From: Gemmatimonadota bacterium
Lineage (GTDB): Bacteria > Gemmatimonadota > Gemmatimonadetes > Longimicrobiales > Gaopeijiaceae
DNA: 55,163 bases
Assembly (NCBI GenBank): GCA_022826005.1
Contig: JAJDVT010000031.1
Coordinates: 1-55,163 of the forward strand
Reading direction: 5' to 3'
Under the pieces are notes generated by a model, which searched no databases, was not told where the DNA came from, and was given only the letters and a program-made list of their open reading frames with translations. Of this stretch, positions 3,895 through 21,803 are shown in pieces. Both the position numbers and the translations under genes were made by a program. Each line of letters begins with the position of its first letter. Position 1 is the stretch's first letter.

Positions 3895-5049
3895 CTACGC
3901 GACGTAGTTGTTCCACGCTTGGAGGACCTCGGCGCGCCTCTCCAGCAGGTCGGAGCGCTGATACGCTTGAACGACCTTGCTCTTCGGAACGTGGGCGAGG
4001 CAGGCCTCCGCGACCTCGGCAGGGACGCCGGACTCGGCCATCCACGACCGCGCGCTCGACCGGAACCCGTGCAGCGTCGAGTTCACACCGGCGAGCCGGA
4101 GGACGCTCGACACCGTCTTCGGCGCAAGGATCCTCCCGATCCTCGACGGAAACACCAGCGGCGACCCATCCGACAGCTTGCGCGCCCCTTCCAGCACGGC
4201 CAGCGCGCCCGTGCCGAGCGGGACGGTGAACTCGCGGCCCGCCTTCATCCTCGACGCCGGAATCGTCCACGTGGCCGCGTCCATGTCGATCTCGTCCCAG
4301 CGCGCGCCGCGCGCCTCGCCGGGACGAACCGCCGTCAGCGCGATCAGTTCGACGCACAACGCCGCCGGACTCCCGTTCCCGGCCCGGCGGATCGCCCGGA
4401 GCGCCGCCGCGATCTCGCCGTGCGGCAGCGCGCGGTGGTGCCCCCCGGCGTTGCCGTTCTGCCTCGGCAGCGCGGCGACCGCCCGGTCGACCGGATTGTC
4501 ACGACGGTAGTTCCGACCGATGGACCAGCGGAAGACGGCGGCGATCCGGTGCTTGGCCTTCCGCGCGGCCGTGGGCATGGTGCTCCAGATGGGTGAGAGG
4601 CACCCGAGCACGTCCGCGCTCGTGATGCGGTCCACCGGCTTGTCCATCAGCGGCGCAGCGTGGAGCCGGAACGTCGATTCCCACTGCTGGGGGAGAGGGC
4701 TTCCTTCCTTCCACGAGTCGCGGTGAAGCTCGATGGTCCGTTCGGCGGCCTTGGCGAACGTCGGGACGCCGCGCCCGCGCGGGTCCCGGCCTTGGCGGAC
4801 CATGCGGCTGTTGTCCAGCGCTTTCCGGCGAGCCTCGGCCAGCGTGACCTCGGGATAGGGGCCGAGCCCGATTGAGGTCAGCCGACCGTCGATCCTGACG
4901 CGCTGCCGCCATGTCTTGGTGATCCGGCCATCAACCGTCCGGTACACCCGGAGGCTCAACCCCCGTCCGCCCCGTCCGTCGCCGTACACGCCGGTTCGGC
5001 CCACTGTCCGCACGAACGCGGCGGAGAGTGTCCTGGGTCGCTTCGTCAT
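3895..5049 (-). CDS. P4/CP4-type tyrosine recombinase (integrase)
   Basis: A 384-residue protein from ATG 5049 (MTKRPRTLSAAFVRTVG); an upstream start at 5169 would add residues that do not look like family sequence. The N-terminal ~95 residues match the arm-binding DUF4102-like domain (GLSLRVYRT, SIGLGPYPEVTLAEARRKA). The catalytic domain shows Arg242 in TAVRPGEARG, His327/Arg330 in LHGFRSSARSW and nucleophile Tyr363 in VVQAYQRSD. It catalyses site-specific integration and excision of the element. The gene points into the element and its 5' side faces the junction with the LRR gene, as is usual for an integrase beside att. Confidence 0.92.
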   Translation of the reverse strand: MTKRPRTLSAAFVRTVGRTGVYGDGRGGRGLSLRVYRTVDGRITKTWRQRVRIDGRLTSIGLGPYPEVTLAEARRKALDNSRMVRQGRDPRGRGVPTFAKAAERTIELHRDSWKEGSPLPQQWESTFRLHAAPLMDKPVDRITSADVLGCLSPIWSTMPTAARKAKHRIAAVFRWSIGRNYRRDNPVDRAVAALPRQNGNAGGHHRALPHGEIAAALRAIRRAGNGSPAALCVELIALTAVRPGEARGARWDEIDMDAATWTIPASRMKAGREFTVPLGTGALAVLEGARKLSDGSPLVFPSRIGRILAPKTVSSVLRLAGVNSTLHGFRSSARSWMAESGVPAEVAEACLAHVPKSKVVQAYQRSDLLERRAEVLQAWNNYVA

Positions 5050-5228
5050 GGGCGCTCTCTCCCGTTGTGTATCACATACTAAATCACTACACAGGGAAGA
5101 ATACACCGGAATGCACTGGACTGCAAGGGACACCGCACGCTCGACGTATCCCTGTAAATGGCTGTCCAATAGCGTCTTGCAAGACTATTGGTGGATGTCT
5201 GTGGAACGTACTGGACGTATGGTAGCTA
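5050..5228. other. Integrase promoter and candidate attachment-site region
   Basis: Non-coding and AT-richer than its surroundings. It holds a long imperfect palindrome at 5166-5191 (CCAATAG-C-GTCTT-GC-AAGAC-TATTGG) and two ACTGGAC-type repeats, near 5113-5119 and 5210-5216, that could be arm-type integrase sites. The TAG at 5223-5225 stops the LRR frame exactly where LRR homology begins, so the recombination core is probably at 5220-5235. No tRNA gene is visible here, so the target appears to be protein-coding. Confidence 0.4.
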
Positions 5229-5288
5229 GTTCCGCCCGAACTTGGCAACCTGGCCAACCTGAAGACGCTCACGCTGAGGGGGACCGAA

Positions 5289-7340
5289 GTGTCCGGACCG
5301 ATCCCGCCGGAACTCGGCAAACTGAGCAACCTGGACACGCTCAATCTGGGCATAACCGACATCTCCGGGTCCATTCCCCCAGAACTGGGCAATCTGGCTT
5401 CCTTGAGGGTGTTGGATCTCGGGGCCAGCGAGTTGACCGGCCCCATTCCGCCGGAGTTGGGCCGGTTGGAAAACCTTACAAGGCTGGTGCTCCACAGCAA
5501 CAACCTCACCGGACCAGTCCCACCCGAGTTCGGCAATCTCGATCGCGCTCGTGCTGTCTACTTGTATTCCAACTCACTGCAAGGCCCTCTCCCACCGGAA
5601 CTGGGCAACCTCCAAGATCTGGATACGCTGATCATCTCTCACAACCAACTGACCGGAACACTGCCGCCTGGACTCGGGAACGCTGGGCACCTGAAAGTTA
5701 TGGACCTTTCCAGCAACGCACGACTGTCCGGTCGACTCCCGCGTGAGCTGACCCGCCTCGATCAAGTCCTGAAACTGGACCTGGGAGGTACCGGCCTTTG
5801 TGGTCCGGACGACCCCAAATTCCTAGACTGGCTGAGCACCATCGATCAACATCGGGTAGCCCTGTGCGAAGGCGCGACCGCCTACCTTACGCAGTCCGTA
5901 CAGTCGCGTCGATTCCCCGTCCCGTTGATTGCGGGCGAGGACGCGTTGCTCCGGGTCTTCATGACGGCCACGCGTGTGACCACGGCTGGCATTCCACCCG
6001 TTCGGGCGACTTTCTTCATGGGCGACCGTGAAGTGCACGCGGTGGAGATCCCCGGTCGGCCGCAAGCGATTCCCACCCACGTGGACCCGGCCACCCTGTT
6101 GCACTCGGCAAACGCACTCGTGCCGGGTAGAATCGTGCAGCCAGGTCTGGGAATGGTAATCGACGTGGATCCCCACGATGAATTGGATCCGTCGCTAGGT
6201 GTGCAGAAGAGGATTCCAGAGACCGGTAGCCTATCCCTGGACGTACGGGCCGCGCCTGAACTGGATCTCACCTTGATTCCGTATCTGTGGGCCGATGATC
6301 CGGACTCGACGATGGTGAGGTTGGTCCAGGCAATGGCAGCGGATCCGCGCAATCACGAACTGCTTCTGGACACCCGTATGTTGCTGCCCACCGGAGAGCT
6401 GAACGTCACCGCGCACCGACCGGTCGTAACATCGACTCGCAACCCCGTTGCGCTTCTCCGCGCGACCCGGGCCATTCGTTCTTTGGAGGGAGGGCAGGGC
6501 CACTACATGGGAATGCTGCCGGAGACGGGCCAGCGCATCATGGGCGTTGCGTACTCCTCCGCCACGGTGAGCTTCTCAATACCCGATTCGTATGTCATGG
6601 CCCACGAACTCGGTCACAACATGAGCCTCCGGCATGCGCCGTGCGGGAGACCTGCGGGAGTCGACGCCGGTTTCCCCCAGCCCGACGGGAGTATTGGGGA
6701 ACCGGGTTATGACTTCCGCGACGGGGGCCGCCTGGTGCCACCGGATGTCCCCGACTTGATGTCATACTGTCGCAGACCTCACTGGATGAGCGAGTACGGT
6801 TTTTCAAAGGCGCTGCGATACCGCTTGTTATCAGAGAGCCAACCCAACGCGATGGCCGCCGCAATCCCTACGAAATCGCTGCTGCTGTGGGGTGGCATCA
6901 GCGCCCAGGGCGTCCCCTACCTGGATCCGGCGTTCGTCGTCGACGCGACCCCTGTTGCGCCCGCTGCCAGCGGTGAATACCGTCTGGAAGGAACGACGGC
7001 CTCTGGTCAGTCGCTCTTCTCGCTTGACTTTGAAATGCCGGAGATGGCAGATGCAGACAGTACGCGGGCATTTGTCTTCACCGTCCCCGCGCAGCCCAGT
7101 TGGGCCGGTGAGTTAACCACGATCACCTTTTCCGGCCCCGAGGGTTCCGTGTCTCTACACGAGCGTAGTAATCGGCCAGGGGCGATTCTGCTCGATACCC
7201 GTAGGCAACAGGTCCGTGGGATTCTCCTCAACCTGCCCGGAGATCCGCGTGCCCAGGCAGATGCCGTCACTCCCTCGCTTCCTGGAATTGAGGTGCTGTT
7301 CAGCCGCGGTATCCCGGACGCGGGAGCGTGGCGACAGTAG
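5289..7340 (+). CDS. LRR-metzincin metalloprotease, 5'-truncated by element insertion
   Basis: The open frame runs from 5226; GTG 5289 is the first plausible start. Seven 24-residue plant-type LRRs of the form LTGPIPPELGNLxxLxxLxL fill residues 1-170, with a further partial repeat upstream of 5289. The C-terminal part contains a metzincin site, VMAHELGHNMSLRH (about 436-449), with three zinc-binding His and a downstream Met-turn DLMSYC. Such a protein should be secreted, but no signal peptide remains. The left part of the gene is therefore probably lost or displaced across the integrated element. The product, if made at all, would be cytoplasmic and likely non-functional. The family would otherwise be an extracellular protease with a binding LRR domain. 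Confidence 0.75.
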   Translation: MSGPIPPELGKLSNLDTLNLGITDISGSIPPELGNLASLRVLDLGASELTGPIPPELGRLENLTRLVLHSNNLTGPVPPEFGNLDRARAVYLYSNSLQGPLPPELGNLQDLDTLIISHNQLTGTLPPGLGNAGHLKVMDLSSNARLSGRLPRELTRLDQVLKLDLGGTGLCGPDDPKFLDWLSTIDQHRVALCEGATAYLTQSVQSRRFPVPLIAGEDALLRVFMTATRVTTAGIPPVRATFFMGDREVHAVEIPGRPQAIPTHVDPATLLHSANALVPGRIVQPGLGMVIDVDPHDELDPSLGVQKRIPETGSLSLDVRAAPELDLTLIPYLWADDPDSTMVRLVQAMAADPRNHELLLDTRMLLPTGELNVTAHRPVVTSTRNPVALLRATRAIRSLEGGQGHYMGMLPETGQRIMGVAYSSATVSFSIPDSYVMAHELGHNMSLRHAPCGRPAGVDAGFPQPDGSIGEPGYDFRDGGRLVPPDVPDLMSYCRRPHWMSEYGFSKALRYRLLSESQPNAMAAAIPTKSLLLWGGISAQGVPYLDPAFVVDATPVAPAASGEYRLEGTTASGQSLFSLDFEMPEMADADSTRAFVFTVPAQPSWAGELTTITFSGPEGSVSLHERSNRPGAILLDTRRQQVRGILLNLPGDPRAQADAVTPSLPGIEVLFSRGIPDAGAWRQ

Positions 7341-12844: not shown

Positions 12845-13411
12845 CTACGGGGCCCGCGCGGGCTCGTCCTCCGCCCCCGCCACCAGAAGGCGCGCCAGGA
12901 GCGTGAGGTTATCGTAGGCCGGGTTTGCAACCTTCCCCCGCACGATCCCGTTTCGATCCACGCCGACCGCAAATGGTGTCAGGAATACGCGCCACGACGC
13001 GGACGTGTCTCCCGTGGCATCCGCGATAACAGACACCTCCGGACCCAACTCCCCGGCGAATTCGCGCACGCGGTCGACGGGCCCGGAACAACACACGACG
13101 GTCTCCACCGTCTCCGCCTGGTCAGCCGCAAAAAGCGCGATCTGGGGGCGGCGGCGCCAGCACGGATCGCACGTGACCGCCATGAACAGGACCACCCTTG
13201 GGCGCCCCGGTTGTGTAGCTGCGAGCCGCACTTCCTCTCCCTCGAGACGGGGAACGGTGGTGCCCTCAGGAGGCCCGTGAATACGAGATCGGCCCTCGCG
13301 GGAGCCGAGCAACAACTCGGCATGTTCCCTGAGCATCACGATCATGCCTGCTCCCAGAATGAGCACCACTACCCACAGGATGCCGTAACTGGTCCAGAAC
13401 AGCCAAGTCAC
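12845..13411 (-). CDS. MauD/TlpA-like membrane-anchored thioredoxin
   Basis: A 188-residue protein from GTG 13411, overlapping the MauE-like stop by 4 nt (GTGA). An N-terminal transmembrane helix (FWTSYGILWVVVLILGAGM) is followed by a thioredoxin-like domain with CxxC in VTCDPCWRRR (Cys81/Cys84) and a likely cis-Pro region near VFLTPFAVGVD. This matches MauD-like disulfide oxidoreductases that help oxidise or isomerise disulfides in exported proteins, with MauE as membrane partner. It is the last gene of the propeller/peptide operon, whose secreted products are rich in cysteines, so these are the probable substrates. The frame is open far upstream, but the coupled GTG is clearly the start. 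Confidence 0.8.
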   Translation of the reverse strand: MTWLFWTSYGILWVVVLILGAGMIVMLREHAELLLGSREGRSRIHGPPEGTTVPRLEGEEVRLAATQPGRPRVVLFMAVTCDPCWRRRPQIALFAADQAETVETVVCCSGPVDRVREFAGELGPEVSVIADATGDTSASWRVFLTPFAVGVDRNGIVRGKVANPAYDNLTLLARLLVAGAEDEPARAP

Positions 13412-14031
13412 GTCGCACGGCCTCCGGTCTGGCCTTCCAATCGTGCAAGGGCCTCGACTTGCCCGCTGTGCGGGCGCGTCCCCGCAGCCCGCATGTCGAC
13501 CACCGCGGCGACCATGCCGTACGAGAGGAGCACCCCCATCGTGGTTGCAGCACCGAGGGTGATCGTCGCGACAGGCAATGCCCAAAGCGGCTGCACCGCC
13601 GCCGCGGATCGTGTGACGGCAAACGCGACAGCGATGAGCACTGCATTCCGGACGAAGTCCAGGGAGCCCACAGGGCCTGCGGCTCCGTGGTCTCCGAAGC
13701 AGGCACAGCCCCCCTGGTAGCCTCGCCGGCGGAGCACGAGGAGGGCGGTCGTGGCGGCGCACAGAAACCCCACCGTGCCCCAAGCCGCCAGTTCCATCAG
13801 GAAGCCCGTGACCAGCAGGGCGGCCAGCAACACCTCGAAACCCACGATGGCAGTTGCAAGCAACACGATCACTGCCGTCGGCGGCCGAGGCAAAAGGAAG
13901 CGAAGGATCCCGCGAAATCCGCCCCAGTCGCGGAGCTTGGCCCACCCCGCGAAGCCGAGCACGGCGGCGAGGAGCGCCCGGCCCAAGTCCGCGATGTGGC
14001 CCGTCTCGGCAACCAGAGGCTGCGGAATCAT
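13408..14031 (-). CDS. MauE/DoxX-like redox membrane protein
   Basis: A 207-residue protein with four to five transmembrane segments. The start MIPQPLVAETGHIADLGRAL leads into a first helix ending GFAGWAKLRDW, as in MauE/DoxX. The loop CACFGD (about residues 125-130) is the Cys-x-Cys-Phe-Gly motif of MauE redox proteins. MauE works with MauD in exporting and disulfide-bonding the small subunit of methylamine dehydrogenase; homologues serve other systems. It begins 4 nt after the propeller gene upstream and is coupled to the MauD-like gene downstream. ATG 14031 is chosen over an upstream start that overlaps the propeller. Confidence 0.8.
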   Translation of the reverse strand: MIPQPLVAETGHIADLGRALLAAVLGFAGWAKLRDWGGFRGILRFLLPRPPTAVIVLLATAIVGFEVLLAALLVTGFLMELAAWGTVGFLCAATTALLVLRRRGYQGGCACFGDHGAAGPVGSLDFVRNAVLIAVAFAVTRSAAAVQPLWALPVATITLGAATTMGVLLSYGMVAAVVDMRAAGTRPHSGQVEALARLEGQTGGRAT

Positions 14032-14035
14032 GCGT

Positions 14036-15235
14036 TTAGGGTTTGCTGGATGGGTCCGGGGCGGGCTGGGGCAGGAATCTGAGTCGCACCACCTGCTCCA
14101 CATCAAATTCCACTTTTCGCACGCCGACCGCCACGTCGCCGCTCAATCCGCCAAGCCAGATCGCGATCCCTCTCGGCCACTCGGCCTCATGGAGAAAAGC
14201 GCCATCTGCATCGTACACGTGCGCCTGACGCATGGTGTCGGCTTCCGCCGGCCAGAAGCAGACCCACAGCCGACCGTCGTCGTCGTACCACATGCGGTCA
14301 ATCACCGGCTTCCTCTCCGGAATCCGGTACTCCGTGTACTCCAGCAGCTCCAGTGGTCCCCCGGACCGAAGCACGTCTCGCATATTCGCCAGCTCCTCGT
14401 ACCCTTCCCGCATCTCCCCCTCGGTGACAAGAGGCCCCAGCCGATCGCTTTGTACCCTGGCCTTTTGCGTGCCATCCGGTCCGTGAACGCGAATGTCGTA
14501 GACCGGAGAAAAGACCTGAGCGAACCCGCCGTCCGGCGCATGGGCCACGAGGACTCTGGCCGCGAACGGTGGAGGAAAGGCGCCCGGATTGGTCCCCAGA
14601 GTCGGCGACCGTATTACCATGACGGGCCATTCCCATACGCCGAAATCCGGAGCTGAATGCACGTTCGGCACCCTGCCCCATACCTCCCCGCTCTCCGTCA
14701 CCTGAACGTGCTCGTCCTTGGCTCCCCGATTACTTGGCCCCCTGCGCGGGACCGTAATTCCCGTCGGCCCGGCGAACATCGGGTTGCCGCAAAGCGCCCT
14801 TGTACCGGGGTCGCGGACAACGAAGGATTCCACGTAGCCCACACTTCCGGGACCGACCCTGAAGATCTCGAAGGAAAACGCCTGATTCACCCAGAGTCGG
14901 CCGTCCGGATCGAACGCGAGGCCGCAAAGAAGCGATGACCTGAACTCGCCGGGGCCCTCGCCTCGTCCTCCAATGCTGACAACGTGTTTTCCGCGGTGAT
15001 CGAATACGCGAACCGTGCGGGATCCGGAGTCGGCCACGTATAAGAGTCCCGTCGCGTCCCGTGCAAGCGCATCCACCTTGTCGAACAGGTATGCCGGGTC
15101 CCCGTCCAGGACGGCCCCGATGGCCAACTCAACCTCCCCCCGCAAGAGGGCCTCCTGGGCAACCCCCTCGCCGGGGGCGCGGCTGTGCCTGCGACCGCCG
15201 CCAACGATCCCGAACTCATCTTCGAGAGACGTCAC
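14036..15235 (-). CDS. Six-bladed beta-propeller protein A (no signal peptide)
   Basis: A 399-residue protein from GTG 15235, with AGGGAGA about 8 nt upstream. NHL/6-bladed repeats are visible: GLLYVADSGSRTVRVFD, VVSIGGRGEGPGEF, GRLWVNQAF and later blade strands including GRLWVCFWPAEAD. The RGEGPGEF motif is shared with the other propellers in the window. Unlike them, it has no N-terminal export signal; the first ~25 residues are polar. It may be cytoplasmic or N-terminally shortened. It is followed at 4 nt by the MauE-like gene and preceded by the Tat-type Cys-rich peptide gene. Ligand and role are unknown. Confidence 0.75.
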   Translation of the reverse strand: MTSLEDEFGIVGGGRRHSRAPGEGVAQEALLRGEVELAIGAVLDGDPAYLFDKVDALARDATGLLYVADSGSRTVRVFDHRGKHVVSIGGRGEGPGEFRSSLLCGLAFDPDGRLWVNQAFSFEIFRVGPGSVGYVESFVVRDPGTRALCGNPMFAGPTGITVPRRGPSNRGAKDEHVQVTESGEVWGRVPNVHSAPDFGVWEWPVMVIRSPTLGTNPGAFPPPFAARVLVAHAPDGGFAQVFSPVYDIRVHGPDGTQKARVQSDRLGPLVTEGEMREGYEELANMRDVLRSGGPLELLEYTEYRIPERKPVIDRMWYDDDGRLWVCFWPAEADTMRQAHVYDADGAFLHEAEWPRGIAIWLGGLSGDVAVGVRKVEFDVEQVVRLRFLPQPAPDPSSKP

Positions 15236-15270
15236 TTTCGATCTCCCTGGGTCAGACCGTCATCATCATG

Positions 15271-15678
15271 TCACACTACTCTGTCGCACCCTGGGTAACC
15301 GAACGTATAGCACGTACAATACTCCCATTCTGCGCCCGGACAATAGCAGTCACATACGTGCGCGAAGACCTCCCGCTCATCATCCATTGGTTGACACCAG
15401 CAGTTGGCTCCTGCGGGTTCACCTGGGAACCAGGGGTTAAACAAGACACAGGGTCCTTGACTCGGCTCGCAACCTCCGCTGCATTGTCCGCCCTCGTCGC
15501 ATTCGCAGGCGCCGCTCGGCATGACGCGCGCGGACGCGGGCCGTGCGACACCACCGAAGGCGACAAGCGCCAAAGCGCGGGTGAAGGCGCGCCGGCTGAG
15601 AGCGAGGGCGCGGGGACGTTTCGGATCGTGAACTTTTTCGGTCACCCGAATCAAGCAGCGATATAGACTCGAAAGCAT
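15271..15678 (-). CDS. Tat-type secreted cysteine-rich small protein A
   Basis: A 135-residue protein from ATG 15678, with an excellent AGGAGG ribosome site 5-6 nt upstream. The N-terminus carries a twin-arginine-like signal (LSRRAFTRALALVAFGGVARPASA, Arg29-Arg30, shown here in two parts: LSRRAFTRALA and LVAFGGVARPASA). The predicted mature part is about 85 residues with 13 cysteines in clusters: CEC, CSGGC, CWC, CDCYC and CTC. This points to an exported, heavily disulfide-bonded or metal-binding small protein. It lies in one operon with MauE- and MauD-like redox proteins and beta-propellers. I do not recognise the family. A methylamine-dehydrogenase small subunit was considered and rejected. 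Confidence 0.7.
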   Translation of the reverse strand: MLSSLYRCLIRVTEKVHDPKRPRALALSRRAFTRALALVAFGGVARPASARVMPSGACECDEGGQCSGGCEPSQGPCVLFNPWFPGEPAGANCWCQPMDDEREVFAHVCDCYCPGAEWEYCTCYTFGYPGCDRVV

Positions 15679-15719
15679 CGTGGCCTCCTGTTGATTTCAA
15701 GATTCGACGCAGCGCAACG

Positions 15720-16331
15720 TCATTCGAACGGTGCGAGATTCCAGTATTGAACCACGACGCCCACCAGGAACGACGTGACGAGCCGACCGCACAGGTCGGG
15801 TACGGGCCTCGACCAGCCCAACCAGGCCAGGCAGTCGTGTGTTTGTGGCAGTCGCCGCGACAGACATCTGCCAACCACAATCAGCGGAACGGCGCGAGCC
15901 AGACCGAAGGCTCCGAAGAGACCGGCCGCCAGAAGGGGCATCTCCGCAGTGGCGACGAGCAACGCCAGGAGGTACACGGTTCCTGTCGTGATCGGCGTCG
16001 CAAACCCCGTTCCCAACGCGGCCCCGAACAGCAGTGAATAACCCGACCTCCCGAACCGGCTCCAACCTCGCGGAACCATCCAGCGACCGGAAGGCGGTCG
16101 AAGCGAGGTGAACAGAATCGGCCTCAGGAGTAGCGCGGCGGCGGCAACGAGGGCCGCTCCGTGAAGCGCGCCTGCCGGCAGGAGTCCACCCAGCGACTGC
16201 AGCGCGACCCCGACAAGGGCACCCGCGGCGACGGCACCGAGCGCGAAGGTGCCCGGACCGGCAAGGAACTGTCGCAACCATGGTTTAGCGTCGTCACCCA
16301 CCGGGGACGTGATCACGTGGATCGAGTTCAT
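15720..16331 (-). CDS. Polytopic membrane protein, weakly CcdA/DsbD-like
   Basis: A 203-residue protein with about five or six transmembrane helices. Two similar segments, GAVAAGALVGVALQSLGG and FGAALGTGFATPITTGTVYL, recall the internal duplication of CcdA/DsbD-type electron carriers, but the canonical membrane cysteines are absent. Three cysteines lie instead in the C-terminal half (VVGRCLSRR, THDCLAW, PDLCGR). It starts 3 nt after the stop of the small membrane gene upstream. Position among redox and Cys-rich genes suggests a role in thiol transfer or in export of the peptides. The CcdA comparison is tentative. Confidence 0.5.
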   Translation of the reverse strand: MNSIHVITSPVGDDAKPWLRQFLAGPGTFALGAVAAGALVGVALQSLGGLLPAGALHGAALVAAAALLLRPILFTSLRPPSGRWMVPRGWSRFGRSGYSLLFGAALGTGFATPITTGTVYLLALLVATAEMPLLAAGLFGAFGLARAVPLIVVGRCLSRRLPQTHDCLAWLGWSRPVPDLCGRLVTSFLVGVVVQYWNLAPFE

Positions 16332-16334
16332 ACC

Positions 16335-16556
16335 TCACGGCGAATACGTTGCAAGCCATCCGGAAAGGGCGGCCAGCAGGAATGAAGTCCACAGCAGCGC
16401 AGCAGGTCCGGCCAAAGCCCAGCCGGCCGCTACGGCGACCAACGGAAGCAGGTACAACCTGACGCCCTTCGCGACCCCGGAGAGCCGGTGGTCATACAGC
16501 CCGTCCGGAGGAACCGCCGGGCCATGCGGTGCCTGGTCACGGACGGCGGATGACAT
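16335..16556 (-). CDS. Small two-helix membrane protein
   Basis: A 73-residue protein from ATG 16556. A polar N-terminus (MSSAVRDQAPHG) is followed by two hydrophobic segments, LYLLPLVAVAAGWALA and ALLWTSFLLAALSGWLA. It overlaps the 3' end of propeller B by 20 nt and its stop is 3 nt from the next start (TGAGGTATG), so it fits translational coupling in the operon. The same ATG context recurs at the end of propeller C (18319) but there leads into peptide B. No family is recognised. It may be a subunit or accessory of the adjacent polytopic membrane protein. Confidence 0.55.
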   Translation of the reverse strand: MSSAVRDQAPHGPAVPPDGLYDHRLSGVAKGVRLYLLPLVAVAAGWALAGPAALLWTSFLLAALSGWLATYSP

Positions 16557-17748
16557 ATCGAACCAGGTACGAGATGCCGAGCTCGTCACGCTCGACCAAC
16601 CACAGCGATTCCGCATCCACCCACGCCATCCCGCCTTGCGGCGGATCGACACGCGCGATGGCACGACCGGATTCGTCCAGAACTTCCCACTCGAACGAAT
16701 CGACGCCCGTGCGGAGGCGCAGCCAGGTCGAGCCGTCCGGCCCGGCACGTACACCGCCGACAGGAGGGAAGAACTCCAACGCGCCATAGGCTCTCTCCAA
16801 CTGCGGCCGAATGCGGCTTTCGGGAAACCTGGATTCCGCGACGATGTCGCGGACGTCGCCCTCCACGTGCCGTGACCGCCACGCCGCGGGCACGCGGATC
16901 GGATCGTACGAGACATCGCGCGCCCACGCGGTGTCCGCCCGCGCGTCGAACCGGATCACGCGAAACGTGTGGGGTTCGGCGCTCGTCGCGCCGGTCCGGT
17001 GCACCACGACGAATCCCGACCCGTCCGGCGCGACCGAAAGCAGCGAGCGGTACGACACGGGAATGGTCGAAGCCACCGTCCAGCCGCTCCCGCGGAGTCG
17101 CACGACTTTGTGGCGCCCGACGATCATGGCCACCGTGTCCCGCAGCAGCCCATCGGGACCGAATCGGAACACAGCCCCCGGCTGCCCGGCCTCCTCGTCC
17201 GCTGAAACCAGGGCGTACCTGACGAGTCTGGAGCCATCCGGCAGAATCCCCCGCACGCTCAGCAAGCTGCTTGCCGGCATAGTCGGGTGGCCCTTGATCC
17301 GCGCTGACGACACGAAGCGGCCCTCGGCGTCAAAGTATTGTTGGCGCTGCAACTCGGGATCGTCGACCCACACCCGGCCCTCGTGCACGCCCATACTGCT
17401 CACCCTCCAGAACTCCCCCGGTCCTTCTCCCCTGCGGCCGATGAACCCGAGGAAATCCCCGGTGAGGGAGAAGACCCGGAGGCGGTGCTCCAACGGTTGC
17501 GCCACGAGCAACCGGTCACCCTGGACAATCACGCGTCCCACCCGAGTGAGCCCCGTCTCCGGGTCGAACGCATCGCCAATCGTGACGGTGCGCTCCAACG
17601 TCCATCGCTCCAACTGGGCTGAGGCCGGGAGGGGCGAGGCGGCGCAGAAGCAGGCCAGCGCGGCACCCATCAAGGCCACCGACGACCCCCCTGCCGTATG
17701 CTGGAATCTCGCAGACCGGTCTCCGGCGGCTATCTCAGATCGTGACAT
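16537..17748 (-). CDS. Secreted six-bladed beta-propeller protein B
   Basis: A 403-residue protein from ATG 17748. A signal peptide ends near ALACFCAASPLPASA; mature sequence begins QLERWTLERTVTIG. Blade motifs include VGRVIVQGDRLLVAQ, FIGRRGEGPGEFWR and GPDGSTWLRLRTG, and the C-terminus ends YLVRYVIRRP. It is a close paralogue of propeller C over its whole length. The start lies 14 nt inside the 3' end of the peptide B gene, so the two are coupled. Known propellers of this class bind ligands or partner proteins at the surface; no enzyme motif is visible. Confidence 0.8.
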   Translation of the reverse strand: MSRSEIAAGDRSARFQHTAGGSSVALMGAALACFCAASPLPASAQLERWTLERTVTIGDAFDPETGLTRVGRVIVQGDRLLVAQPLEHRLRVFSLTGDFLGFIGRRGEGPGEFWRVSSMGVHEGRVWVDDPELQRQQYFDAEGRFVSSARIKGHPTMPASSLLSVRGILPDGSRLVRYALVSADEEAGQPGAVFRFGPDGLLRDTVAMIVGRHKVVRLRGSGWTVASTIPVSYRSLLSVAPDGSGFVVVHRTGATSAEPHTFRVIRFDARADTAWARDVSYDPIRVPAAWRSRHVEGDVRDIVAESRFPESRIRPQLERAYGALEFFPPVGGVRAGPDGSTWLRLRTGVDSFEWEVLDESGRAIARVDPPQGGMAWVDAESLWLVERDELGISYLVRYVIRRP

Positions 17749-18226
17749 GCCGGAGGCCCGAACGCAGTTCAGCGATTCTCGCCGGGGAGTAGCGTTGTCG
17801 AACGATCCCGCCGGTGCATCCGTGCCGGGCCACCTCCGGCAGGACGTTGGTGGCGGGCGCCGCCTCCTGCATCCGCCGGTGGAACTCCGCCGAGTAGACG
17901 CGGCCGGCCGGATCGAGAACGATGAGGCAATTCGAGCTACCGTCCGGGCGGTTGCTGTGGCTGCATTGCCGCCCTCCCCTCGACAGCTCGCATGCTTCGA
18001 ATGCCGTTTTCTCCGTCGCTCTGCAAGCAAAGTAATGCTCCTCCGGCGGAGGGTCTTCGTCCTCCTCCGGTGGAGGGTCTTCGTCCTCCTCCGGTGGTTC
18101 CCACAGCTCGCACCTATAGCAGTAATCCTGGGCCGTGGCGCGCGCCGGCACGCCCAGGCATGCGAACGCGAGCAGGATCGCGAGGGGGGGGAACAGGTAG
18201 TTGAAGTAATTGCATGGCTTGTTCAT
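17735..18226 (-). CDS. Secreted cysteine-containing small protein B
   Basis: A 163-residue protein from ATG 18226 with GGGAGG about 9 nt upstream. A signal peptide ends near ACLGVPARATA. The mature part starts with a CxxC (CYRC), has an acidic Pro-rich double repeat DEDPPPEE, then four more cysteines. The tail GCTGGIVRQRYSPARIAEL is almost the same as that of protein C. Seven cysteines remain after the signal. No known family recognised. It is translationally coupled to propeller B by a 14-nt overlap and is likely its partner or a substrate of the MauE/MauD-like pair. Confidence 0.7.
   Translation of the reverse strand: MNKPCNYFNYLFPPLAILLAFACLGVPARATAQDYCYRCELWEPPEEDEDPPPEEDEDPPPEEHYFACRATEKTAFEACELSRGGRQCSHSNRPDGSSNCLIVLDPAGRVYSAEFHRRMQEAAPATNVLPEVARHGCTGGIVRQRYSPARIAELRSGLRHVTI
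18038..18097. repeat. 24-bp tandem repeat inside peptide B
   Basis: Two full and one half copy of a 24-bp unit starting CTCCTCCGG lie at 18038-18061, 18062-18085 and 18086-18097, with one base difference. On the coding strand they give DEDPPPEE twice. The repeat is in frame and so changes protein length without breaking it; copy number may vary between strains. Confidence 0.85.
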
Positions 18227-18299
18227 CGGAAAGTCCTCCCTTGGATGAATGGAAATGAATGGAGTTTCGTCGGGCCGAGTCGGGGCCTGCGACAACTGC

Positions 18300-19481
18300 T
18301 CACGGGCGGCGAATGACATATCGAACCAGGTACGGGACATCGAGTTCGTCCTCTTCCACGAACCACAGCGAGTCGGTGCCCGCCCACACCATCCTGCCTC
18401 GCGGAGAAGGCTCGACGCGCGCAAGGGAACGGCCGAACGCGTCCAGCACCTCCCACTCGGAGGTATCCGTGCCCGTGCGGACGAGCAGCCAGGTACTGCC
18501 ATCCGCGCCGGCCCGCACGTCCCCCACGGGAGGAAAGAACTCCAGATTCCGATAGGCGCCCTCAAGCACGCGGAGAAGTGGCGCGCTCAAGTCGCTGCGC
18601 TCCTCAAGGTGCCCAGACCGCCACTCCGAAGAGACCGGGATCGGATCGTACGGGATGTCGCGCACCCACGCGGTGTCCGCCCTGGCGTCGAACCGAATCA
18701 CACGAAAGGCGTGGGGCTCGGCGCTCAAGGCGGCCTCCCGGTGCACGATGACGAATCCCGACCCGTCCGCACTCGGGGCAAACAGCGATCGGTAGGACTC
18801 GGGCAGCCAGGTAAAGCGGACTCCCCCCTGGCTTGTCCGCCCGAGCCTAAGCGCGTCCGGCCGGCCCACGAGGACGGCCACGGTGTCCTGGAGCAACCCC
18901 TGCGCATCGAACCGAATCACATGTTCCGGTCGGTCGGGAGAGGCCGCGAGCTCGGCGACATCCCGTGGGATCGTGACGAGCATGGATCCATCCGCGAGCA
19001 TCGTGCGCACGCGTACCGAACCCATGGGAAGCGTGGGATGGCCCCGGATCCGTATCGAGGAAGCGTAGCGGCCTCCCGGGTCGAAGTACTGCACGCGTCC
19101 CCTGAGGCGGTCGGAGACCCAGACCAGCCCATCGCGGACGCCTATCCCGTTCACCTCCCTGAACTCCCCCGGCCCCTCGCCCCGGCCGCCGAGGAAGTTC
19201 TGGAAGTCGCCCGCGACGGAAAAGATCCGGAGGCGGCGCTCGCGGTGTTGCATCACGAACAGGCGCTCGCCTACAACGATCACATCGCGCACCCAGGTCA
19301 ATCCCAGTTCCGGGTCGTCGTGATGGCCGATCGTGATGGTGCGCTCCAAGGTCCACCGCTCACCCTGAGCGGAGCCGGAGCACGGTGAAGCCGCCAAAAG
19401 GCACGAGCAGCCGAGTGCCGCCACCGCCATGGTGGCCAACCGAGGACCCCCTCCGGGGACCTTTGCGTTAGATCGTGACAC
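18300..19481 (-). CDS. Secreted six-bladed beta-propeller protein C
   Basis: A 393-residue protein from GTG 19481, chosen because it aligns with the ATG of propeller B (MSRS- versus VSRSN-) and gives the same 14-nt overlap with its peptide gene. A signal peptide ends near CLLAASPCSGSA; mature start is QGERWTLERTITIG. Motifs include FLGGRGEGPGEFRE and GADGSTWLLVRTG; the end YLVRYVIRRP is identical to propeller B. Residue-level likeness to B is high throughout, so this is a tandem duplication. It is part of the minus-strand operon. Confidence 0.8.
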   Translation of the reverse strand: MSRSNAKVPGGGPRLATMAVAALGCSCLLAASPCSGSAQGERWTLERTITIGHHDDPELGLTWVRDVIVVGERLFVMQHRERRLRIFSVAGDFQNFLGGRGEGPGEFREVNGIGVRDGLVWVSDRLRGRVQYFDPGGRYASSIRIRGHPTLPMGSVRVRTMLADGSMLVTIPRDVAELAASPDRPEHVIRFDAQGLLQDTVAVLVGRPDALRLGRTSQGGVRFTWLPESYRSLFAPSADGSGFVIVHREAALSAEPHAFRVIRFDARADTAWVRDIPYDPIPVSSEWRSGHLEERSDLSAPLLRVLEGAYRNLEFFPPVGDVRAGADGSTWLLVRTGTDTSEWEVLDAFGRSLARVEPSPRGRMVWAGTDSLWFVEEDELDVPYLVRYVIRRP

Positions 19482-19935
19482 GTCGGAGTCCAGCACGTAT
19501 TTCGGTGATGCGCGCCGGCGAGTAACGCCGTTGGACGATGGCACCGGTGCATGCTTGCCGCGCGACTGCCCGGGACTTTTCGGCGGCGGGCACGACGAGC
19601 TGCTGCCACCAGGGGATCTCCACCCCGCCAACCGCGCCCGTCGCTACCCCTGAAGCCCAATGCAGAGCCTCATGCATCGCCCTGCCGTCGAAACCAGGAT
19701 CGGCGACGCAATCCGTCTCATCGCTGCTCAGCTCGCAGTCCTCGTTCGGTTTCACGACCTTGCACGTATCGTAGCCATCACCTTCCAGTTTTGGCACGCA
19801 CTCCGGCGGGCTGTTGTCCTCCTTCACGCACTCGGTGCACCCCTCTTGGGCGGCGACGCCTTCCGGCATCCCGGACACACCGAGTGCGAACAGCGCCGCG
19901 AGGACCGGGAGCAGGGAGCTTGTTGCATTACGCAT
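19468..19935 (-). CDS. Secreted cysteine-containing small protein C
   Basis: A 155-residue protein from ATG 19935. A signal peptide (LLPVLAALFALGVSGMPEG) ends near VAA before QEGC. The mature protein opens with CxxC (CTEC), has an acidic middle with four more cysteines and a C-terminal tail ACTGAIVQRRYSPARITEI very like that of protein B. Both have seven cysteines after the signal. Its start overlaps the end of propeller-like gene D by 8 nt, and its end overlaps the start of propeller C by 14 nt. No family recognised. The conserved tail is probably a recognition or docking element. Confidence 0.7.
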   Translation of the reverse strand: MRNATSSLLPVLAALFALGVSGMPEGVAAQEGCTECVKEDNSPPECVPKLEGDGYDTCKVVKPNEDCELSSDETDCVADPGFDGRAMHEALHWASGVATGAVGGVEIPWWQQLVVPAAEKSRAVARQACTGAIVQRRYSPARITEIRAGLRRVTI

Positions 19936-21073
19936 CGGAGATTCTCCTTTCGGGAAGTGACCCATCGCCTGCGGGGGCGCGGAGTCGCCACCGCCAGGAA
20001 TACAACACGATTTCGCTCGCTTCGAACGTCCGCAGCGCCGCAAGAATCCGGGCGTGGGAGGCCACGGCGACAAGACCGAAGGGGGCCTGCAAGACTCGAC
20101 TGGACGCGACATCACCCTGATCATCGTACGTAACCACAAGGCGATCATCGCTCGTGACGTCCGCGATGACCTGGATCACGCCGGGTGCGACGGAGAGCGC
20201 ACTCAAGCCCATCCATCTTGGAGGGGGGTCTCGTTCGGCGGTTCCATTCGACGGGGGACGGTTCGGCTGCATCCCCGCAACAACATCTCCGTCAACGCCG
20301 ATCCTCCACACCAGGAAAGGTGAGTCGCGAAGCGCGACCAGCGCGTCGGTGCCGGCGGTCGCCAGGAACGCCCGATCGGGCGAAGCGGCGAGCGGCATCA
20401 CATGCTTGGGGCTCGACACTCCGTCGCCGGGCAGGAAATGTAGAGCTGCGTTTTCACCCGTTCCCTCGGCCAGCAACCACCAGCCACCGTCCCCCAAGGC
20501 AGCCGAACGGATGCCGGAAACCGGGATGACCCTTGGCGTACGATGTTTCCAACTCCCCCACTCGACCGCCGACACCCTTCCTCCAGCGTGTATGATGCCG
20601 AGCGTGGAGTCGTCGAGAAACGCGACGCCCGCGATCTCCTCGGGTGGCAGGTGCTCACGGGGTACCGACTGGGCATCCCCAACACCGCGTTCGAAGTACA
20701 GGAAGCGCCTTGGCCGGGACCCCCAGACGACCACGCGGGCACCGCTCGGGGAAAGCGCTGCTCCCTCGACGGTCATACCGGGCGGAAGCGTATAGGTGGC
20801 TATTTCCGTAAGTTCAAGTGCGCTATCAGATTCCGTGCGAAGCGAGGGGCGTATCGGATCGCGTGGGGCTGCCGATAGTCCCGGCGTCAGAGCCTCGGGA
20901 GGAGGCACCAGCACACCAGCCTGTTGGTGGCCAGCCACTCCGGCCATCCCGATTCCAAGCCAGACCCACAACGTTCTGGTCAAGGCTTCTCCGATCACGA
21001 GACTCCCCTTGGTCGAGTCGGAGTCGAGGTGAGTTCCCAGCGACTCATCATCATATGGCCGCGAGACCGGCAA
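19928..21073 (-). CDS. Propeller-like secreted protein D, first gene of the operon
   Basis: A 381-residue protein. The first ~50 residues are polar and then hydrophobic (TRTLWVWLGIGMAGVAG), fitting an export signal, possibly with a later GTG start near residue 26. Repeating WD/NHL-like strands follow (GAALSPSGARVVVWGSRPR, GVAFLDDSTLGIIHAGG, AALGDGGWWLLAEG), suggesting a beta-propeller, but the GEGPGEF motif is absent. The stop overlaps the start of protein C by 8 nt. It is the first gene after the divergent region shared with the ECF sigma factor (21074-21272). No specific family recognised. Confidence 0.6.
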   Translation of the reverse strand: MPVSRPYDDESLGTHLDSDSTKGSLVIGEALTRTLWVWLGIGMAGVAGHQQAGVLVPPPEALTPGLSAAPRDPIRPSLRTESDSALELTEIATYTLPPGMTVEGAALSPSGARVVVWGSRPRRFLYFERGVGDAQSVPREHLPPEEIAGVAFLDDSTLGIIHAGGRVSAVEWGSWKHRTPRVIPVSGIRSAALGDGGWWLLAEGTGENAALHFLPGDGVSSPKHVMPLAASPDRAFLATAGTDALVALRDSPFLVWRIGVDGDVVAGMQPNRPPSNGTAERDPPPRWMGLSALSVAPGVIQVIADVTSDDRLVVTYDDQGDVASSRVLQAPFGLVAVASHARILAALRTFEASEIVLYSWRWRLRAPAGDGSLPERRISDA

Positions 21074-21272
21074 ACCTTACAACGGGCCTTCACCTGCCAA
21101 GTCCGCGCCCCCGCAGCACCTCCTCCATCACGGCCGTCGCCTCGACCGGCTGACCCCCGGTCACGGTGGTCACTCGTTCCAAGTTTTGCACGCTTTCGGT
21201 CCCGGAACTGTCTGTGTCTGCAGAAAAGGCGATCCATGCCCGTCCACGACTTCCAGGGCTCGGGAGGCAGAA

Positions 21273-21803
21273 ATGGCAGACACACGCGACTCCGAAAGGC
21301 CCGGCGGCGGCAACCGCCAAGCCGACGAAGCTCTTGTAACTCGATGGCTGGCCGAGCACTGGGATGCAATGGTGGAGTTGGCCAGACAGCGGGCAGCAGG
21401 GTGCGCCACGACCCCCGAGGACATCGCGCAGGACGCCCTCCTGGCCGCGTACGAGCGCCGCGCCCGGCTTGTGGACCCTGGCGGAGAGCGCGCCTGGCTA
21501 CAGGCCTTCGTCAGGAACAAGGCGCGCGAAGCCGTCAGACGGAGAATGCGCCGCGGCAGCAAGCTGCCGCTGGAGTACGCCGACCTGGAAACGGATGGGC
21601 ATCCCTTGGCTTGCAACGACAGGCGGAGGGAGCAGGTCATGGACGCTGCTCCGGGTTTGCCGGGGAAGCAGATGGAAATCGTGGAGCTCATCCTTGATGG
21701 TTGCAGCGACGACGAGATCGCGGTCTCCACGGGCCTGAAGAAGGGAACCGTGTGGGTCTACAAGCACAGAGCCATAGGGAAGCTGAAGGAGCTCATCCAC
21801 TGA
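21273..21803 (+). CDS. ECF-type RNA polymerase sigma factor
   Basis: A 176-residue protein from ATG 21273, with GGGAGG at 21262-21267. Region 2 shows TPEDIAQDALLAAYERRARL and DPGGERAWLQAFVRNKAREAVRR. Region 4 shows the HTH CSDDEIAVSTGLKKGTVWVY followed by KHRAIGKLKEL. Length and domain order fit a minimal ECF sigma. No anti-sigma gene is adjacent. It is divergent from the propeller/peptide operon across a 199-nt gap, so it is the most likely regulator of that operon, although no -35/-10 pair could be assigned by eye. Confidence 0.82.
   Translation: MADTRDSERPGGGNRQADEALVTRWLAEHWDAMVELARQRAAGCATTPEDIAQDALLAAYERRARLVDPGGERAWLQAFVRNKAREAVRRRMRRGSKLPLEYADLETDGHPLACNDRRREQVMDAAPGLPGKQMEIVELILDGCSDDEIAVSTGLKKGTVWVYKHRAIGKLKELIH

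Follow-up and report, generated by a model that had tools for sequence, protein, structure and literature searches.

The closest described relatives of the locus examined here are the methylamine dehydrogenase gene clusters of the mauFBEDACJG type, found in Paracoccus and Methylobacterium. In amine dehydrogenases that use tryptophan tryptophylquinone (TTQ), the cofactor requires two tryptophans and the heavy chain, MauB, is a seven-bladed propeller. The DsbD/CcdA-type thiol transporters, a further point of comparison, carry an SPC-type motif in a membrane helix. The locus itself is a compact run of minus-strand genes, from position 20998 to 12845, in a 55,163-nucleotide stretch of a Gemmatimonadota genome (GenBank assembly GCA_022826005.1, contig JAJDVT010000031.1; the whole stretch is called the window). 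It contains a homologue of MauF, here named Sec-MauF, in which an in-frame TGA stands at the position of an invariant cysteine and probably specifies selenocysteine (Sec, U). This homologue lies among genes for MauE- and MauD-like proteins, propellers and exported cysteine-rich proteins.

Paracoccus denitrificans requires MauE and MauD to metabolise methylamine (van der Palen 1997, as cited in PMC7794033), and a role of MauE in the light-chain disulfides of methylamine dehydrogenase is put forward as speculation (PMC7794033). Relatives of the locus were sought in 118 genomes and in profile searches across the phylum (298 and 395 genomes); MauD served as the query for a profile scan of genome contigs. 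The relatives named below are Gemmatimonadota metagenome-assembled genomes and Candidatus Palauibacter poriticola, with genomes cited by G numbers.

The membrane gene and its in-frame TGA

The first-pass annotation, made from the letters alone, had listed two small membrane proteins here and eleven genes in the run. The two open reading frames concerned (16335–16556 and 15720–16331) lie in one frame and are separated solely by a TGA (16335–16337, minus strand), so that they are better described as one gene (16556–15720, minus strand) for a polytopic membrane protein of 278 residues, and the run as ten genes. Read through, this protein aligns with MauF from three real mau operons (Paracoccus denitrificans, Methylobacterium and Indioceanicola) with an hhalign probability of 98.6% (E 1.2e-15, 181 columns over the membrane region); the second half alone reaches a profile probability of 96.6%, and no control (reversed, column-shuffled or an unrelated membrane family) exceeds 0.3%. 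The TGA is aligned with the cysteine of the MauF sequence STWSPCGYSS (SP-C-G versus SP-TGA-G), which is the only invariant cysteine across the three MauF proteins. The junction would read ATYSP-U-GMNSIHVITSPVGDD, with selenocysteine predicted as residue 74 (U74). Sequence comparison thus demonstrates the genes themselves, how they are related and linked, and the correspondence between TGA and cysteine. No NCBIfam or Pfam model matches full-length Sec-MauF, and a plasmid tblastn with it as query gave no match. A weak match without TGA in G377 was set aside as a distant DsbD-like protein, not MauF, beside heavy-metal type genes.

All 11 copies of the gene, from six genomes and two families (the window, G022, G009, five in G103, two in G306, and G353), have TGA at this site, never TAA or TAG. 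Eight copies are intact around the TGA; those at G306:C19 and G103:C39 carry damage elsewhere, and in G353 the contig stops soon after it. At G103:C39 (L129, 8996–10675) a deletion fuses the membrane part of Sec-MauF to the propeller gene prop1, with the TGA retained.

Were the TGA a real stop, MauF would be truly split, its second half arising by re-initiation or coupled translation and reassembling with the first. TGA is indeed the commonest stop in these loci, and an ATG occurs two codons after it in the window copy. However, the copies share no conserved start: the first start codons are scattered from codon +2 to codon +24, and G306 offers only a TTG at codon +24, past the residues N+3, I+5, P+11 and G+13 that are invariant in eight aligned copies. 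The break also falls exactly at the invariant MauF cysteine in every copy, silent sites behind it are frozen, and machinery for selenocysteine occurs in all carriers where it was sought. A protein made in two pieces is considered most improbable, and decoding of the TGA as selenocysteine is the reading followed here.

The silent-site freeze is limited to codons +1 to +16, in which 164 of 237 same-residue codon pairs are identical against 105 expected from codon usage; the remaining gene gives 689 of 1786 against 672 expected. The proline codon CCG (+11) and the glycine codon GGT (+13) are identical in eight of eight copies, even though no glycine codon is rarer than GGT. Folding of the frozen stretch gives a hairpin with a bulged U, a putative bacterial selenocysteine insertion sequence (SECIS). 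The published model for such elements has a loop of 3–9 nt, a stem of at least 4 bp, G in the first two loop positions, a distance of 16–37 nt from the UGA and a minimum free energy of −7.5 or lower (PMC13188914). In the window the hairpin (16292–16309, minus strand; CGUCCCC-GGU-GGG(U)GACG) has an energy of −7.7 kcal/mol and the loop GGU, and its apical loop starts 32 nt behind the UGA. The loop conforms to G[G/U]N in every one of the 11 copies, and 94.9% of the pairs are kept among nine copies, against 27–67% when the hairpin is slid. No Rfam SECIS model matches in the operon.

The decoding machinery accompanies the gene. A tRNA-Sec with UCA anticodon is present in the genome of the window (G000), G022, G009 and G103; SelB scores above cut-off in these four and in G306; and SelA is found in these five and in G353. 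In two relatives free of the module, G031 and G071, SelA is absent and no SelB lies above cut-off. One published test for new selenoproteins asks for cysteine homologues, for a TGA that two or more sequences retain and for a SECIS-like hairpin (PMC1088965); Sec-MauF has all three, its cysteine homologues being distant. An inventory from 2026 of 119 prokaryotic selenoprotein families does not list MauF (PMC13188914), and a literature search found no paper joining MauF with selenoproteins. Insertion of selenocysteine at the MauF TGA is strongly supported by these sequence features, and Sec-MauF is predicted to be a new selenoprotein family. The ends of cys13, mauE, mauD and prop1 were also inspected for recoded stops, and none reads on conservedly.

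Several observations weigh against this interpretation. TGA conservation alone is weak evidence, because TGA accounts for 71 of the 116 stops across these loci. Taken by itself, the hairpin is also weak: 23 of the 71 ordinary TGA stops pass the same hairpin criteria, three of the eight hairpin copies tested miss the strict energy limit (−7.5), and covariation is slight, with one compensatory pair. No cysteine version of this MauF subfamily was found in the phylum, the cysteine homologues being the distant MauF proteins of methylotrophs. The AlphaFold model of Sec-MauF, made with two sequences, is unusable (predicted local distance difference test score, pLDDT, of 40). Finally, MauF has one redox residue only, which makes a relay partner hard to name.

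Accessory proteins, client and propeller

The linkage of mauF, cys13 and prop1 with mauE and mauD recurs in the window, G022, G009, G103 and G306. This set, mauF(Sec)–cys13–prop1 with MauE/MauD, is the conserved core of the operon and is called module B; its client is exported by the twin-arginine translocation (Tat) pathway. The MauE- and MauD-like proteins named in the first-pass annotation are both borne out. The mauE gene (14031–13408, minus strand) encodes a membrane protein with a conserved CxC that belongs to PF07291 (E 9e-17; 62 bits against a gathering threshold of 27) and matches MauE of methylamine dehydrogenase operons with a profile probability of 98.1% (E 9e-14). The product of mauD (13411–12845, minus strand) is a membrane-anchored, thioredoxin-like protein of the redoxin family PF08534 (E 1e-8), with CDPC in the window and CxxC in 10 of 10 copies. 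Its profile match to MauD is strong (98.6%, E 5e-16), and its match to the equivalog model TIGR02661 (E 2e-6) reaches 27.3 bits against a cut-off of 188.6; judged by these profiles, the protein is MauD-like and not an equivalog.

The cysteine-rich protein of the module, cys13 (15678–15271, minus strand), consists of an N-terminal stretch, an RRxF motif followed by a hydrophobic run, and a mature part with CxC, CWC, CDCxC and CxC motifs. Across the family (n=11), 11 cysteines and one tryptophan are invariant and two further cysteines nearly so. The leader, SRRAF in the window, has the signature of a Tat substrate, with RR-x-F invariant in 11 of 11 proteins. It also resembles the leader of MauA, in a profile match (56%) that is confined to the leader; the mature parts do not align. 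In the cys13 proteins of the other family (L035, L041, L059) the C-terminus is a glycine run followed by RHPGEL or RHPGGL (as in GGGGRHPGEL), which the window copy does not have.

The propeller gene prop1 (15235–14036, minus strand; PF17170) adjoins cys13 in the carriers, except on the cut G353 contig and at G306:C19, where mauE and mauD lie between. The predicted structure of prop1, of moderate quality (pLDDT 66, predicted template modelling score 0.67), has its best Protein Data Bank matches among six-bladed NHL domains (Z 18). A hydrophobic leader is found in none of the 10 unfused prop1 copies, versus all 12 copies of the prop2/prop3 type. Two natural deletions bear on this: in G007 the Tat leader of cys13 is fused in frame to prop1, and in G011 the first MauF helix is. 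Both fusions leave prop1 intact and supply an export or membrane signal. Because prop1 is leaderless and such fusions occur, it is most simply read as a protein that acts outside the cytoplasm and is normally carried through Tat by cys13.

The module resembles the mau clusters of Paracoccus and Methylobacterium in several respects. MauF, MauE and MauD are all homologous, with the CxC of MauE and the CxxC of MauD conserved, and both clusters encode a Tat-exported protein with many cysteines together with a propeller. They differ in that the module has selenocysteine in MauF where mau has cysteine, its client and its propeller share no sequence relationship with MauA and MauB, and amicyanin, MauJ and MauG are missing beside the genes; the order is F–client–propeller–E–D, as opposed to F–B–E–D–A in mau. 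A divergent methylamine or aromatic amine dehydrogenase, with cys13 as the tryptophan-quinone light chain and prop1 as the heavy chain, would explain the shared trio of accessory proteins, the MauA-style Tat leader and the pairing of a small multi-disulfide protein with a propeller. Yet mature cys13 has no match to MauA and only one invariant tryptophan where TTQ needs two, prop1 has no MauB profile match and folds best onto six-bladed NHL domains, and no MauG is seen beside any copy, in a survey of the neighbourhoods as distinct from whole genomes. An amine dehydrogenase is therefore regarded as very unlikely. The direct assignments were rejected as well: as a methylamine dehydrogenase light chain, cys13 is matched by the profile in its Tat leader only, and a Protein Data Bank search returned chance matches to small cysteine-rich proteins; as for the propellers, they have no MauB profile match, and methylamine dehydrogenase heavy chains are not among the fold matches listed. 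Sec-MauF, then, is not part of a methylamine dehydrogenase operon, there being neither MauA nor MauB in the module.

Other members of the phylum, G209 and G236, carry real TTQ operons, which sets the two systems apart. Like the module, these mauBEDA operons place MauE and MauD beside a Tat-exported, cysteine-rich light chain and a propeller; unlike it, they have true MauA and MauB, lack MauF and selenocysteine, and lie in other genomes. In G209 (L065, 6537–9327) an apparent TTQ operon comprises mauB, mauE, mauD and mauA without MauF, and in G236 (L066, 2896–4218) mauD and mauA stand on a short contig, again without MauF. Outside these genomes, a Thermomicrobium roseum plasmid (NC_011961.1, L077) encodes at 4869–5321 a MauA-like 'methylamine dehydrogenase light chain' with a twin-arginine leader; its neighbours are propeller-like hypothetical proteins, with no annotated MauB. 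This locus is possibly another variant of the small-protein and propeller arrangement.

A possible redox relay and its product

The core is probably a MauF-E-D-type maturation-and-export module for a new client, in which a predicted selenocysteine takes the position of the one conserved cysteine of MauF. Since selenocysteine and cysteine exchange at the sole conserved cysteine of MauF, that residue is likely to be redox-active and MauF to belong in the MauE/MauD pathway. Sec-MauF would exchange electrons with MauE and MauD across the membrane, in one direction or the other; MauE with its CxC and MauD with its periplasm-facing CxxC thioredoxin fold would complete a thiol/selenol–disulfide relay. 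The client cys13, exported by Tat, has conserved cysteines worth about six disulfides, which MauE and MauD may set or shuffle after export, before or during binding of prop1. The propeller would fold in the cytoplasm and most likely exit with cys13 through Tat, and the end product may be a periplasmic complex of propeller and disulfide protein. The first-pass annotation had proposed that redox proteins fold the peptides beside the propellers. This proposal holds in outline, and the redox genes do travel with the cysteine-rich protein; the predicted selenocysteine in MauF had been missed.

Other membrane thiol carriers offer partial parallels. One Sec-MauF protein is weakly similar to PF13386 (E 0.12), a likeness to the DsbD/CcdA-type transporters that extends to their SPC-type motif; it differs from them in its single Sec/Cys, the partner cysteine of CcdA being missing, and in belonging to no Pfam or NCBIfam family. 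TsoB (NF045694), a known selenoprotein related to DsbD, offers a second parallel, but it is a rhodanese/DsbD fusion with two selenocysteines, and the NCBIfam search found no TsoB match here.

The cysteine-rich proteins could instead be secreted bioactive peptides, similar to bacteriocins or to ribosomally synthesised and post-translationally modified peptides (RiPPs), matured by MauD and MauE and served by the propellers as binding or immunity partners. MauE and MauD homologues do occur in candidate Streptomyces RiPP clusters (PMC7794033), and peptide and propeller genes expand as pairs, module B reaching five copies in a single genome. The cluster, however, contains no transporter, protease or modifying enzyme, the core of cys13 is conserved and not hypervariable, and Tat export with a propeller partner would be unusual for a peptide toxin. 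Bioactive peptides are hence thought quite unlikely, and the maturation-and-export module remains the preferred reading.

On this preferred reading, the MauF-E-D trio is separable from TTQ synthesis, because its client here is an unrelated protein with many disulfides, and neither MauA nor MauB nor MauG lies next to it. Replacement by selenocysteine of a protein's only conserved cysteine is among the best signs of redox chemistry at that residue, and so provides a sequence hint at the long-unexplained MauF: it may be a redox catalyst acting through this residue, probably in the MauE/MauD disulfide pathway. The bacterial selenoproteome would gain a polytopic membrane protein, from an uncultured marine-symbiont (sponge-type) lineage of Gemmatimonadota, and the case illustrates that selenocysteine genes can hide as two short 'hypothetical membrane proteins'. 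A more speculative and rather unlikely extension is that the selenium-dependent relay builds a new periplasmic complex, redox or quinoprotein-like, in which a 12-cysteine protein whose invariant CWC is cross-linked post-translationally sits on a Tat-co-exported six-bladed propeller. If true, this would be the third design of a propeller with a cross-linked small subunit, after the TTQ and cysteine tryptophylquinone (CTQ) amine dehydrogenases.

Module A and the distribution of the two modules

Two modules, each found alone elsewhere, are fused in this operon. Module A consists of propL, a cysteine peptide exported by the Sec secretion pathway and a propeller exported by the same route; the window has a second peptide/propeller pair. 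Its first gene is propL (20998–19928, minus strand), followed on the same strand by cysA (19935–19468), prop3 (19481–18300), cysB (18226–17735) and prop2 (17748–16537). The peptide cysA, with homologues in the relatives, has seven mature cysteines and the C-terminal motif CTGAIVQRRYSPARITEIRAGLRRVTI, shared by cysB, which is 39% identical to it; prop3 and prop2, the respective partners of cysA and cysB, belong to PF17170 and carry signal peptides. In this species module A is placed in front of module B, and its two pairs may share the relay.

The end of cysA and cysB (C-TG-IV-QRYSPARI-E-R-GLR-VTI; window 19468–19560 and 17735–17830, minus strand) is strongly conserved despite divergence of the remainder, and may be the propeller-binding part. 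Every gene for a cysteine-rich protein adjoins a propeller gene. The three exported cysteine proteins of the first-pass annotation, with 7, 7 and 13 cysteines, have these numbers in their mature parts; with leaders included, the second has 9 and the third 14. Its three GEGPGEF propellers are likewise real (PF17170 in prop1, prop2 and prop3). For its propeller-like protein, propL, the gene holds; the propeller fold is unproven, as Pfam does not match it and its profile does not resemble those of the other propellers. Pfam also matches none of the three cysteine-rich proteins and neither of the two membrane reading frames. With the starts chosen here, overlaps occur at five of the nine junctions, in place of the 'most' first suggested.

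The Bacteroidota modules of NVEALA peptides and BF3164-type propellers had also been brought in for comparison, with the operon as a possible independent version. Both have small exported peptides beside six-bladed propellers. Support for kinship stops at the propeller family PF17170, which is shared; the window peptides match neither NVEALA nor any other family in Pfam or NCBIfam. A literature search retrieved no paper with the term NVEALA.

Further genomes of the phylum show the same gene order, so that the first-pass proposal withstands its own refuting case of homologues with no common order. Module A stands without module B in G106, and module B without module A in G009 and on several contigs of G103, a genome with five copies of the membrane gene. 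The two are joined in the window, G022, G103:C25 and G306:C85, and propL homologues precede cysA-type genes in G022, G103, G106 and G306. A viral-contig search with the cysA peptide as sole query gave no match. The gene for an extracytoplasmic function (ECF)-type sigma factor is present opposite the operon as noted before (21273–21803, plus strand; PF04542, PF08281); being absent beside the module in G022, G103, G009 and G306, it is incidental to it. A decayed copy of the operon lies in G008:C157 (L034, 8400–12300), with flanks as in the window (the sigma gene and its upstream neighbour on one side, a rhomboid gene on the other). Tiny exported proteins of 59 and 70 residues, CC-rich and with eight cysteines, are encoded near the module in G022 (L033, 3232–3411) and G021 (L036, 7449–7661).

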